In this document: positions 19,242 to 56,323 of the stretch, piece by piece
Layout: each line of letters opens with the position of its first letter
How positions within the stretch are numbered: position 1 is the stretch's first letter
Source: a virus
DNA length: 64,000 bases
IMG/VR virus record: IMGVR_UViG_3300010399_000035
Span: 21,036 to 85,035 of that record
Reading direction: 5' to 3' (one strand)
The notes under the pieces: model-generated
The model's database searches: none
The model's input: the letters and a program-made list of their open reading frames with translations, nothing else
Told to the model about the DNA's origin: nothing
Translations under genes and position numbers: made by a program

Positions 19242-19559
19242 CTATAGTACCCAGAACTTATCGTACAATGCTAGTGCGCTCGCCCGTTCGTCGAGCGTCA
19301 TAGCCCGAAGTAGGTTAATACACCGCTGGCACACGTCGGCAAGATGGGTGGATTCTGTCGGGTCGGTTCGCGCTTGGTTAACCTGCTGCTGGCAGAAGTC
19401 TAGGTGATCATCTTCGAGGTTCCAGTCGTCGATCACGATATGTAAGTGGCCACCTGTACTGTGTAAATTGTATACCTCAGCAATTGCGGTGGCCGATTGG
19501 TATACCAAGGTGTTGTCGAGCATAGGAGCGCCATACTTCTGCCAGCAGCCGTAGCACAT
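19242..19559 (-). CDS. Small Cys-pair protein
   Basis: 105 residues from the ATG at 19559 (TAATG overlap with the SDR stop). CYGC at 2-5 and CQRC near 79 could bind one zinc. The middle is acidic (DDWNLEDDHLDF). The frame is open further upstream but only inside the SDR gene. Function unknown. Confidence 0.7.
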   Translation of the reverse strand: MCYGCWQKYGAPMLDNTLVYQSATAIAEVYNLHSTGGHLHIVIDDWNLEDDHLDFCQQQVNQARTDPTESTHLADVCQRCINLLRAMTLDERASALALYDKFWVL

Positions 19560-20314
19560 TAGACGCCCATCCCTCCCGGCATAGTCAGTACGGTGCCGGA
19601 GCACTGTTCGGGCAGACTGTTCACGGCGAAGTCGTACAGCTTCCAGACTTCCTCGAAAGTACATCCGCGTCCGAATGGGCTCTGGGAGAAGTACTTGGTG
19701 GCTTGCTCTTCGGACATGCCCCGCGTCCGCTGGAGCTCACGGATGGCTTGCGCCTTCATCTCCGTGTCGTCAATGCCGCCAGGGGCGATGGAGCACACAA
19801 CGATGGGCAACCGCCCCGCGAACTCCTTCGCGAAGACCTTCGTCAAGGCATCCAGTCCAGCCTTCGAAGCACAGTACCCAGGGCTAGCTCGGAGGCTAAT
19901 TTTGGTGCCCATGGACGAAGTGTTCACAATGCGGCGAAGTCGTTCTCGGGGGACGGATTCGTCGTTTTTAACTCGACGGGCGAATTCCCGGCAGAAAAGG
20001 AACGGAGCCACCAGGTTCACATTTAAAACGGCGCTGAAATCCCCCAAGGAATGGTTCTCGAGGAAGTCGATCTTGGTCATGCCTGCATTGTTAATGAGGA
20101 CGTCGATTGGGCCACCCATGGAAGCTTCAGCCTGGTCGAAGATGTGGTTAAGTTCTTCTTCGAACGAGTATGGTTCGGGGTAGGTGGCGTTGAAGTCGCT
20201 CTCGAAGTCCGGTCCGCCCAAGCCCACGCCGAACACCTCATGCCCTTGCTCCAGCAGTCGTTCCCGGATATAGGCTCCAATGCTGCGCGAGCAGCCTGTC
20301 ATTAAGATTCTCAT
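19559..20314 (-). CDS. Short-chain dehydrogenase/reductase (SDR)
   Basis: 251 residues with the classical signature: TGCSRSIG cofactor loop (6-13), NNAG, catalytic Ser in NTSSMG, YCASK, and the C-terminal PGG turn. It should be an NAD(P)(H)-dependent oxidoreductase with a Rossmann fold; the substrate cannot be read from the sequence. It lies between replication and nucleotide genes, so a sugar-nucleotide or nucleobase-related reaction is conceivable. SDR genes are rare in phages of this kind. Confidence 0.9.
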   Translation of the reverse strand: MRILMTGCSRSIGAYIRERLLEQGHEVFGVGLGGPDFESDFNATYPEPYSFEEELNHIFDQAEASMGGPIDVLINNAGMTKIDFLENHSLGDFSAVLNVNLVAPFLFCREFARRVKNDESVPRERLRRIVNTSSMGTKISLRASPGYCASKAGLDALTKVFAKEFAGRLPIVVCSIAPGGIDDTEMKAQAIRELQRTRGMSEEQATKYFSQSPFGRGCTFEEVWKLYDFAVNSLPEQCSGTVLTMPGGMGV

Positions 20315-45718: not shown

Positions 45719-45778
45719 ACGAACTCCTTTTAACGTCTTTAGCGTTGCCTGGGCTTGGAACCAGGACTGCCGCATTAC

Positions 45779-45795
45779 GGCCCGGAGGGGCCGTC
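45779..45795. repeat. Short GC hairpin between small genes
   Basis: ACGGCCC and GGGCCGT around GGA/TCC; no T-run, so only a weak terminator candidate. Confidence 0.4.
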
Positions 45796-45803
45796 CTCTG
45801 CGA

Positions 45804-53877: not shown

Positions 53878-54105
53878 TTATTCGAGCTCTTTCAGCCCTA
53901 CCAGCTTGTCGTCATCGTTGATCGTCAGGTATCTATACTCGCCCCACTTTAATCCATGCCAGCCGCTACTTCCTACCGTCTTGGATTCCAAGCGAACGTA
54001 CCGCTCGTTCAGCTTCAGCCGTTTGTTAGCCTTATATAGGTGGTTGTTTTGGCCGACGATCCAGCCACGAGCGGTAGCCCATTCGACTAGCGATTGTTTG
54101 GTCAT
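53878..54105 (-). CDS. Small protein, paralogue of the gene at 45321
   Basis: 75 residues, ATG at 54105 right after GGAGGGG. MTKQSLVEWATARGW, HLYKANKRLKLNERYVRLES and DDKLVGLKELE align with the other copy. Confidence 0.75.
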   Translation of the reverse strand: MTKQSLVEWATARGWIVGQNNHLYKANKRLKLNERYVRLESKTVGSSGWHGLKWGEYRYLTINDDDKLVGLKELE

Positions 54106-54123: not shown

Positions 54124-54354
54124 TTATATGCCGTTTATAGCATCTTCGATCTCGCGTTTGCTGAAGACAGGTTCCGGTTGGTTGGTACCTTCGTCGTTGG
54201 TGTAGTAGGTTACGAAGATATATGCTTCGTTGTCCATTTCAACCAGGACGATGATGTCGCCTTCGTCGTTGGAGAGCACTTGTGCGGTGGAGCCATCGGT
54301 GGTGGGAGTGTAGCCAAGGGTGGCTAGGTGGGCGGAGGCTGCGGGGACGTTCAT
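54124..54354 (-). CDS. Unknown 76-residue acidic protein
   Basis: LATLGYTPTTDGSTAQVLSN, then beta strands GDIIVLVEMDNEAYIFVTYY. AAGGAA precedes the start. Confidence 0.7.
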   Translation of the reverse strand: MNVPAASAHLATLGYTPTTDGSTAQVLSNDEGDIIVLVEMDNEAYIFVTYYTNDEGTNQPEPVFSKREIEDAINGI

Positions 54355-54390
54355 TTGGTTCCTTATAATGAGGTAGATATTGATGGGGTA

Positions 54391-54566
54391 GCAAGGCTGG
54401 TTGACCTACTAAATGCATCATCGCAAACTCAAGGTTTGCTCCGCCTTTTCAGTCTCAGCCAGATTCGTACAAATCAGCGGTCCCATATTGCAGGACTTGA
54501 AGACTACGTCGGGGCCATGCCAGGGTCAGTTGCGCAGCGGACGCAACCTTCTGGAACCAGCCTTGC
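54391..54566 (-). ncRNA. Stem-closed structured RNA candidate
   Basis: A perfect 12-bp inverted repeat (GCAAGGCTGGTT and AACCAGCCTTGC) closes about 150 nt that hold three further hairpins: GTTGCG/CGCAAC, AGTCC/GGACT and GCAAAC/GTTTGC. No gene fits this stretch. It lies directly next to the tRNA-like element. The strand is inferred from that neighbour. Confidence 0.5.
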
Positions 54567-54570
54567 CTGA

Positions 54571-54631
54571 CAACAAGTGATGGATTCGAACCATCTTCCC
54601 TGTGGGGAGCGCCCGGATGCGCAACTTGTTG
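54571..54631 (-). ncRNA. tRNA-like cloverleaf (61 nt, reduced anticodon arm)
   Basis: 7-bp acceptor-like stem (CAACAAG/CTTGTTG), a 4-bp arm with GG in the loop (GCGC, ATCCGG, GCGC), a 4-bp arm with a 4-nt loop (TCCC, CACA, GGGA), and a T-arm with a perfect TTCGAAT loop (GATGG/CCATC). There is one unpaired A before the acceptor strand and no CCA. It is too short for a normal tRNA and has no 7-nt anticodon loop. A decayed tRNA or a tRNA mimic are the alternatives. Confidence 0.5.
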
Positions 54632-54640
54632 ATTCCTAGT

Positions 54641-55732
54641 TTACGTCTCCTTCAATGGGTTATAGCTAGTCTCGTCCTCGTCGAAGCTCCAGGCGACGCC
54701 TTCCTTGGCCGTTCGAATCGTTGGCGGTACCATAAGGTAATAGGGCTTAAATTGGCCATCGGGCTCCGGGGTTGAGTTGATGACTTTGACCATAACCTCC
54801 CGCTCCCCGCCACGGAAGCGACCTTGCTCTGGAGGATCTATAACGTAGAGTTCGCCATACTCATCCTGCTGCGCTAGGCGAGCTCCAGCGGCTTTCAGGA
54901 ATCGTTCCCGCCCAAACGAATCGATCATGATGCGGCGAACTTCCATGTTCCAAGTTTCGCGAATCTCTTTGATCGTCATCTTCTCTGGCTGCTCAACTAA
55001 ATGCTCTTTGACGGACACTCCGACCAGATGATGGAGCCCAAACCCGTCAGACCACGCTACGGAAGGACCCTCCGCGTTATGGATTCGGCCTTGCTCGTCG
55101 CGGTGGAAGCGAACGTGCTTACGGCAGGCTAGGATAGCGTGTTCGTGTGCCCAGAACGGTCCGGCTAGAGCAAGTATTGTGTTGGCAGCCGATACGACCT
55201 CGGTGGGCAACTTGGACTTCGCGCCTAGCGCCACGCGATCCAAGTCATCTCCAGCCAACACCAATGTAAACGTGTTGGCCGCTTTAGAGTTAACGACCTT
55301 GTCCAACTGCCCCGTTAGGTCGATGCTGAACCGACTATGAAGCGTGCGGGACTCGCCGAAACTGCGTAGTAGGTCAAAGTACCCGTTGACTCTTGGGTAG
55401 TTATACCTGCCCAACAGCAAGTGGTATAAGTTCGGCCCTAGCCCAAGTTTGCCGTTTTCGGTTAGGTGCTGCCAGGCGGCGACTGCAGCCGGGGCGTAAG
55501 CCTTGCACTTGCGTGCGTTGTAGATCGATCGTGTGGTAGGTACGTATAGAGAATCGTTGAGAGCGCAAGTGGCATGCACCATGGCTGCCGCCAGCGGGGA
55601 ATCGAACCATACAATACGATTCGGGTAAGTCTGGTCGCTAGCTTCATATATGGTGCGTAGGGCCTGTTCAACTTCGGCTTCGTCTGCTTTGGTCGTGGCT
55701 CTGGGTTCTACCGCAACTTTGTACGGGTCCAT
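54641..55732 (-). CDS. DUF6745-like protein
   Basis: 363 residues; ATG at 55732 with AAAAGGAG upstream. The C-terminal half has the family blocks: GPSVAWSDGFGLHHLVGVSV, WNMEVRRIMIDSFGRERFLK, then VKVINSTPEPDGQFKPYYLM and a final NPLKET. The family is widespread in bacteria and phages; its function is unknown. Confidence 0.75.
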   Translation of the reverse strand: MDPYKVAVEPRATTKADEAEVEQALRTIYEASDQTYPNRIVWFDSPLAAAMVHATCALNDSLYVPTTRSIYNARKCKAYAPAAVAAWQHLTENGKLGLGPNLYHLLLGRYNYPRVNGYFDLLRSFGESRTLHSRFSIDLTGQLDKVVNSKAANTFTLVLAGDDLDRVALGAKSKLPTEVVSAANTILALAGPFWAHEHAILACRKHVRFHRDEQGRIHNAEGPSVAWSDGFGLHHLVGVSVKEHLVEQPEKMTIKEIRETWNMEVRRIMIDSFGRERFLKAAGARLAQQDEYGELYVIDPPEQGRFRGGEREVMVKVINSTPEPDGQFKPYYLMVPPTIRTAKEGVAWSFDEDETSYNPLKET

Positions 55733-55781
55733 CTTAAAACTCCTTTTCCCGCCCACCTACCCTAAATAATCGGCCCTCAGT

Positions 55782-56108
55782 TTAATCCGCCACGTAGCGG
55801 TTGTACTCTGGGGTATATTCGCGCTGGCGGCGAACTTCGTAGTAGCCAGGCTCTAGGTCGATCGGCGCGTGTTCGTCGTGAACCACAACGCCCGGATCTA
55901 CCAACTTCAAGAACCGACGACCCTCCTCGGTTTCCAGCAGTTCGGCGACCCCACCCTCAGCGCACTCCGCAACATGGGCATGTCCGGTGACCTCGCCGTA
56001 GGCCAGAATGACCCGACCTTCGTCCTTCGGGACTGGCTTCAGGGTTGCTTCCGGCATCCCAACCCGAACCAGCAGAATGTCCCCTTGGCGATACATTTTC
56101 TTTTGCAT
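55782..56108 (-). CDS. Conserved phage protein of unknown function
   Basis: 108 residues; ATG at 56108 just after AAGGAGG. MYRQGDILLVRVG, YGEVTGHAHV, HDEHAPIDLEPGYYEVRRQR and a YTPEYNRYVAD end form the signature of a common phage family. Beta-rich. First gene after promoter P13. Confidence 0.8.
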   Translation of the reverse strand: MQKKMYRQGDILLVRVGMPEATLKPVPKDEGRVILAYGEVTGHAHVAECAEGGVAELLETEEGRRFLKLVDPGVVVHDEHAPIDLEPGYYEVRRQREYTPEYNRYVAD

Positions 56109-56149
56109 TAATACCTCCTTCCAACCAATGGTTTTGGCTTCCACCGTAT

Positions 56150-56176
56150 ATTATGCCTCAAGCGAACAGCTTTGGG
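56150..56176 (-). promoter_or_regulatory. Phage promoter P13
   Basis: CCCAAA, 15 nt, CATAAT, with an A/T-rich palindromic stretch (AAAATAACT/AGTTATTTT) upstream. Rightmost promoter of the minus-strand block. Confidence 0.8.
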
Positions 56177-56323
56177 GGCCGTTTTCAGGTTTATACTAAA
56201 ATAACTGGGTAGTTATTTTGATAGGACCCTGCCAGCACCGCTCAGGATCCGCTGATTAAGGCATACTTGCTCCGGTGGCGCGGTTCGCGCCGAGCCCAGC
56301 TAGCCCCTACGAAATCAGTTGGC

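Follow-up and report, generated by a model that had tools for sequence, protein, structure and literature searches.

Why would a phage keep a tRNA fold without the arm that decodes? The usual explanations for phage tRNAs are codon usage and resistance to tRNA-cutting defenses. In the 64,000-nucleotide stretch analyzed here (the window; positions 21036-85035 of an 85,035-base soil phage contig whose genes encode phage structural and replication proteins), a tRNA-like cloverleaf with no usable anticodon arm stands next to an RNA domain closed by a long stem. An earlier note, made from the letters alone, had proposed a tRNA mimic or a new phage RNA. Our analysis confirmed the observation and partly supported the interpretation: the proposal fits, and a related phage preserves the arrangement, with changes on both sides of many pairs; descent from a tRNA gene or the swapping of such genes has to be weighed.

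A cloverleaf and a stem-closed domain fill one intergenic gap

Both RNA parts occupy a 286-nt gap between a DUF6745 gene and a gene of 76 codons on the minus strand. In 5' to 3' order on that strand, the cloverleaf (54631-54571) is followed by TCA, the stem-closed domain (domain C, 54567-54391), approximately 36 nt that include a purine-rich AAGGA, and the ATG of the 76-aa gene. The parts are as follows.

54571-54631, minus strand: tRNA-like cloverleaf, 61 nt, from sequence, predicted fold, and descriptor
54624-54631/54571-54578, minus strand: cloverleaf acceptor, 8 bp
Within the cloverleaf, minus strand: D arm, 4 bp, with GG
54597-54608, minus strand: third arm, 4 bp, loop CACA
54579-54595, minus strand: T arm, loop TTCGAAT
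54568-54570, minus strand: linker TCA between cloverleaf and closing stem (CCA here in the relative G010)
54391-54567, minus strand: domain C, multibranch, 177 nt, with a perfect 12-bp closing stem; probable 5' leader of the 76-aa gene
54555-54566, minus strand: 5' arm of the closing stem, GCAAGGCUGGUU in the minus-strand reading, identical in the relatives
54391-54402, minus strand: 3' arm of the closing stem, AACCAGCCUUGC in the minus-strand reading, identical in the relatives

The cloverleaf keeps the tRNA elbow and lacks a usable anticodon arm

The cloverleaf folds as the earlier note described, on the minus strand (the note gave no strand). From 54631 to 54571, its 5' part reads CAACAAGT-T-GCGC(ATCCGG)GCGC-TCCC(CACA)GGGA, and the remainder reads A-GATGG(TTCGAAT)CCATC-ACTTGTTG, followed by TCA. 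Three hallmarks of a tRNA that the note had listed are all present, namely, the acceptor stem, the GG of the D loop, and a perfect T-loop; the latter, TTCGAAT, agrees with TTCRANY and is canonical on the minus strand only. A plus-strand reading was dropped, as its T-loop is non-canonical and its 331-nt fold unremarkable (z -0.45). On the minus strand, the minimum free energy (MFE) of the cloverleaf was -24.9 kcal/mol (z -3.30, with 2 of 200 shuffles equally good; 63-nt stretch folded).

We described the cloverleaf by a TTCRANY T-loop, a 5/5 T-stem, an 8/8 acceptor, and GG in the D region. This descriptor matched once in the window, at the cloverleaf, and never in 100 dinucleotide-shuffled windows. 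Across 108 fetched sequences (475,168 bases, with 22 duplicates omitted and some overlap remaining), its only other matches were the relatives' copies and tRNA-array genes in three loci (L006, L120, and L121). The same scan showed that an eighth acceptor pair is not rare in ordinary phage tRNAs. L006 (8195-12660; IMG/VR contig 3300007072_000340, a topoisomerase-like relative) holds several dozen tRNA descriptor matches in a dense array, and its topoisomerase frame contains an in-frame stop.

The anticodon arm of a tRNA (5 bp, 7-nt loop, U33) is absent from the window cloverleaf, whose third arm has the 4 bp and 4-nt loop reported earlier, TCCC(CACA)GGGA. ARAGORN found 0 tRNA and 0 tmRNA genes in the window, and relaxed runs gave only calls elsewhere than at the cloverleaf. 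A tmRNA has its tRNA-like domain around an insert with a tag reading frame; the third arm here is 12 nt long. The covariance-model check that the earlier note had proposed (tRNA, tmRNA, and large phage RNAs) gave no Rfam match at the element. At gathering scores, Rfam 15 matched nothing in the whole window save a twister ribozyme elsewhere, and at E<=5 on 54200-54800 it reported just a 15.3-bit plastid hairpin on the other strand, a chance match. At E<=10, the Rfam tRNA model reported none of the three copies (window, G010, and G011) and detected tRNAs in 14/14 control genomes. Thus, no tRNA or tmRNA model recognizes the window cloverleaf, and the description of it as neither a standard tRNA nor a tmRNA stands. 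The claim that CCA is lacking holds for the window, which has TCA, but not for the related phage, where CCA is encoded. Not all bacteria encode CCA in their tRNA genes.

The stem-closed domain

The perfect 12-bp stem closing approximately 150 nt was borne out by pairing of 54391-54402 with 54555-54566, which enclose 152 nt. Such a stem alone is within chance, with 41 inverted repeats of this kind per 100 shuffled windows (0.41 per window); the case for its reality rests on its conservation in the relatives. Of the three inner hairpins noted earlier, the branched interior was recovered, while their number is approximate: the MFE fold of domain C has several branches, and the hairpin GCAAAC-CUUGA-GUUUGC is the one best supported by the relative. 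The fold was more stable than nearly all shuffles in the window (z -2.55, 1/200) and less clearly so in the relative (z -1.73, 10/200). Domain C had no covariance-model match to Rfam riboswitches or large phage RNAs (GOLLD, ROOL, etc.), and the relative's locus gave chance matches only against Rfam. No reading frame within the RNA element is common to both phages. Elsewhere in the window, a second, longer perfect inverted repeat of about 15 bases, GCTGCTGGCAGAAGT, lies at 19385-19550 with its arms approximately 135 nt apart, inside a 140-aa reading frame (19242-19664).

A related phage lineage carries the same layout

Searching with the major capsid protein identified two related IMG/VR phage contigs, G010 (53.5 kb) and G011 (88.4 kb), with capsids 97% identical. 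The 2,861 nt compared around the element do not differ between the two contigs, which therefore count as one further sequence, so that three contigs with two distinct sequences are known so far. Both have the same layout in the same place, ahead of an orthologous 76-aa gene, with one additional domain.

L025:991-1064: relatives' cloverleaf, 74 nt
L025:1068-1177: relatives' domain B, approximately 105 nt, stem-closed, not in the window (z -2.38)
L025:1177-1345: relatives' domain C

A stem-closed domain begins within 5 nt of the acceptor in both phages. The closing stems of domains B and C could instead pair with each other (CTGGTT/AACCAG), which would make a switch possible. The G010 cloverleaf alone is no stabler than its shuffles (z -0.10, 90/200). 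ARAGORN called this cloverleaf in G010 and G011 as tRNA-Leu(taa), with an anticodon arm that is defective in its drawing, having a C.C mismatch in the stem and a G at position 33; U33 is near-universal in tRNAs.

Outside this lineage, our searches of viral contigs and bacterial genomes, by pattern and by protein, turned up no true copy. The stem pattern hit four stretches in viral contigs, two of them true and two (L029 and L030) judged chance inside genes, and had 0 matches in bacterial genome contigs; the inner-motif pattern hit three stretches in viral contigs, two true and one (L119) a chance match inside a gene. A covariance model of domain C found 3 of 42 phage records at E<1e-40, two of the three having been used in building the model; a further match, in G031, scored 13 bits. 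The 42 records comprised 3 of the lineage, 9/9 topoisomerase loci, 24/80 terminase loci picked by length, and 6 named phages. Protein searches with the 76-aa and 75-aa products returned only G010 and G011. A profile of the 76-aa protein found none in bacterial genomes and none in 39 of the 42 phage records, the latter run having no positive control. A search for relatives of the DUF6745 protein found none, that with the topoisomerase-like protein gave nine loci, 0 of them with the element, and that with the large terminase gave none close among the 80 loci kept of more. Two 14-nt matches in topoisomerase-related loci were weak (E 0.07 and 0.27), and the one inspected was judged chance. A tRNA-model match in G011 (18.3 bits) was dropped because it lies inside a tail gene.

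Paired changes and a closing stem fixed in sequence

Compensatory changes in relatives had been named as a further check, and pairs changed on both sides were seen in both parts. We laid out the G010 cloverleaf pairs by hand, excluding the D arm, which differs in length. All 17 pairs compared (8 acceptor, 4 third-arm, and 5 T-stem) are standard in both phages; 6 are the same, 11 are changed on both sides, and none is changed on one side or broken. The two cloverleaves are 65% identical, against a shuffled mean of 61%. With so little resemblance beyond that of shuffled sequence, each may derive from a different tRNA gene occupying this position, and the "paired changes" would then be differences of origin. 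RNAalifold, run on the two aligned with MAFFT, recovered neither the complete acceptor nor the D arm.

For domain C, all 37 consensus pairs are kept in both sequences, 8 of them changed on both sides. Only 3/500 shuffles reach this level of pair keeping, and slid versions pair at 27-44%; these counts are support rather than proof, since the same two sequences had served to derive the structure. The interior of domain C is near random, with 68% of aligned positions identical compared to a shuffled mean of 61%. The 12-bp closing stem, by comparison, is identical at 24/24 bases between both phages, while fourfold-degenerate sites are 57% identical (323 sites in seven neighboring genes; an eighth, the topoisomerase gene, was dropped because its partner lies outside the compared stretch). 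Both the bases and the pairing of the stem are thus constrained, suggesting that a partner binds it.

The element lies in a run of same-strand genes

The neighboring features, in the order of transcription, are listed below.

56141-56233, minus strand: promoter-like block, identified by eye, with the inverted repeat AAAATAACT-ACCC-AGTTATTTT plus GGCATAATATACGGTGGA
55782-56144, minus strand: 120-aa gene, phrog_27831, probable ATG near 56108; in G010 not between promoter-like block and RNA
54641-55756, minus strand: DUF6745 gene, 371 aa, just upstream of the RNA; in G010 not between promoter-like block and RNA
54124-54354, minus strand: 76-aa gene, directly downstream of the RNA, no assigned function, 66% identical in G010
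53878-54105, minus strand: downstream 75-aa gene, 73% identical in G010 (in the list of open reading frames, start 54123, 81 aa)

The promoter-like block is common to both phages. It adjoins the cloverleaf directly in G010 and lies two genes earlier in the window, where the 120-aa gene and the DUF6745 gene come before the cloverleaf. This arrangement makes it likely that the cloverleaf is co-transcribed from the block. Simple promoter scans did not score 56141-56233 as a sigma-70 promoter, and on the minus strand no terminator-like site was reported from these genes down to the 76-aa gene except the T arm itself. Since the stem-closed part sits directly before the 76-aa gene, it looks like the 5' leader of that gene as much as a free RNA. 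AlphaFold modeled the 76-aa protein poorly (pLDDT 62).

Three further features of the region were observed. Compared to G010, the DUF6745 and phrog_27831 genes (54641-56144, minus strand) form a cassette gained or lost exactly here. A conserved palindrome, AAAATAACTACCCAGTTATTTT, at 56198-56219 in the divergent intergenic region is a likely operator. The twister ribozyme matched by Rfam is a Twister-P5 self-cleaving ribozyme at 45749-45802 (minus strand), above the Rfam cut-off and likewise found in G010 and G011; lying approximately 8 to 9 kb downstream of the putative tRNA mimic on the same strand, it would be a second RNA-cutting signal in the lineage.

Comparison with known systems

The closest parallels are likenesses of design rather than membership. 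The RNAs mascRNA and menRNA, from MALAT1 and MENbeta, resemble the element in being cloverleaves of about 60 nt with an acceptor, a T arm, and D-loop guanines forming the elbow, in having a reduced D arm, a compact loop on the third arm, and only a few linker residues, and in separating a long RNA from its flank (PMC11693755, PMC9777231). These reduced-arm cloverleaves are processed by RNase P and RNase Z, enzymes that recognize the elbow and measure from there (PMC11693755). They differ in being animal nuclear RNAs with the mimic at the 3' end and a triple helix upstream, whereas here the mimic is in a phage and 5' of the domain; the mascRNA third arm also has a longer stem. Apart from the chance plastid hairpin, the phage element matched no Rfam family at E<=5, including that of mascRNA-menRNA. 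The TMERs of murine gammaherpesvirus 68 are likewise tRNA-like elements directly followed by stem-loops in one transcript, of 200 to 250 nt and processed with tRNase Z (PMC4838037). However, they are herpesvirus Pol III transcripts yielding miRNAs, and no homology is claimed.

To our knowledge, the C4 antisense RNA of P1/P7 and M3 RNA are not full cloverleaves with a T-loop. What they would share with the element is being phage regulatory RNAs cut by host RNase P, which also cuts acceptor/T-stem-loop model substrates (PMC11143913, PMC4919922). They also differ in that the phage element matches no Rfam family. Another likeness is to the tRNA-Leu genes of the Gordonia phages GodonK and Phendrix, which resemble the D arm and 5' half of the relative's cloverleaf (88-90% identity over approximately 40 nt, at a weak E of 0.03). 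Both have full arms, including an anticodon arm with U33 that the phage element lacks, and that of GodonK scores 40.8 bits with the tRNA model. Together with the ARAGORN call in the relative, this likeness to actinophage tRNA-Leu makes phage tRNA genes the probable source of the element, which would since have lost decoding.

A processing signal, a decaying tRNA gene, or something else

We consider it very probable that the element is a real, conserved structured RNA. What it does is less certain, and the reading that we favor, at a probability of roughly 45%, has RNase P and RNase Z cutting the operon transcript at a non-decoding tRNA mimic that stands ahead of a structured 5' leader. Such a mimic would keep what tRNA-end enzymes measure, the stacked acceptor and T arm with the elbow of D and T loops, and dispense with a usable anticodon arm. 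Host RNase P would cut at the 5' end of the cloverleaf and RNase Z (or exonucleases) would act at its 3' end, so that the downstream message would be severed from what precedes it, DUF6745 in the window and a short promoter-proximal leader in the relative. The downstream message would gain a defined 5' end 3 to 5 nt before the long closing stem, by which it may be stabilized or its translation controlled. The stem-closed domain would then be the 5' leader of the 76-aa/75-aa gene pair, and its sequence-fixed 12-bp stem a putative binding site, possibly for a phage protein. A weak point is the RNase P step: the window cloverleaf ends in GUCA instead of the RCCA by which bacterial RNase P recognizes the tRNA 3' end.

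The main rival, which we judge rather unlikely, is that a phage tRNA gene is decaying, or that two distinct tRNA genes have been exchanged at this spot, with the cloverleaf lying by accident before an unrelated leader and having no present function. The probable origin in tRNA genes fits this account: the G010 copy is still called a tRNA and encodes CCA, its 5' half recalls the GodonK and Phendrix genes, the window copy looks like a further truncation, and the two cloverleaves have little sequence in common. Free decay, however, should break pairs, and all acceptor and T-stem pairs are intact in both copies, even though fourfold sites agree at 57%. Moreover, the anticodon arm is defective in both copies, and the next stem follows at a similar distance. 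The loss of the anticodon loop with retention of elbow and acceptor would also suit a decoy acting in trans, in which the cloverleaf, once processed, builds up and captures a host tRNA-binding protein, e.g., a tRNA-targeting defense enzyme or a tRNA-modifying enzyme, while itself uncuttable in the anticodon loop. A decoy would not need a fixed position ahead of a leader, and we regard it as improbable.

Two other accounts carry very little weight. Chen et al. in 2014 reportedly found Y RNAs near phage Ro60 genes, and YrlA, like the element, is a non-coding RNA with a tRNA-like domain or module (PMC7790460). A Y-RNA-like partner of Ro60 is nevertheless most unlikely here: the topology differs, with the cloverleaf outside rather than inside the long stem, no TROVE/Ro60 domain was detected in the three phage records at E<=1 (records that may be incomplete), and no Rfam Y RNA family matched at E<=5. 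Chance folding in an intergenic spacer would account for the 12-bp stem taken by itself (0.41 expected per window) and for the ordinary 331-nt fold of the plus strand, but hardly for a cloverleaf seen in 0/100 shuffles or for a layout and stem unchanged in the relative. As an account of the whole element, judged on this conservation, chance is refuted.

Implications

tRNA mimics as such are known; here, the RNA domain joined to the predicted mimic fits no Rfam model, and the literature searched contained no phage element of this kind (most subscription papers lay outside its coverage). The scope is narrow, three contigs with two distinct sequences. More tentatively than the favored reading itself, we propose that the element may represent a new class of phage RNA, in which an anticodon-less tRNA mimic marks an operon for cleavage and is fused to a structured leader of a new kind that drifts in sequence everywhere but in its 12-bp closing stem. 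Such a class would parallel, in a virus of bacteria, the designs of mascRNA and the TMERs. Keeping the tRNA fold without its decoding arm would mean that the phage uses the fold for another purpose, the simplest being to borrow host tRNA-end processing to cut its own messages, or to act as a decoy, and the neighboring leader, with no Rfam match, could be a new regulatory RNA.
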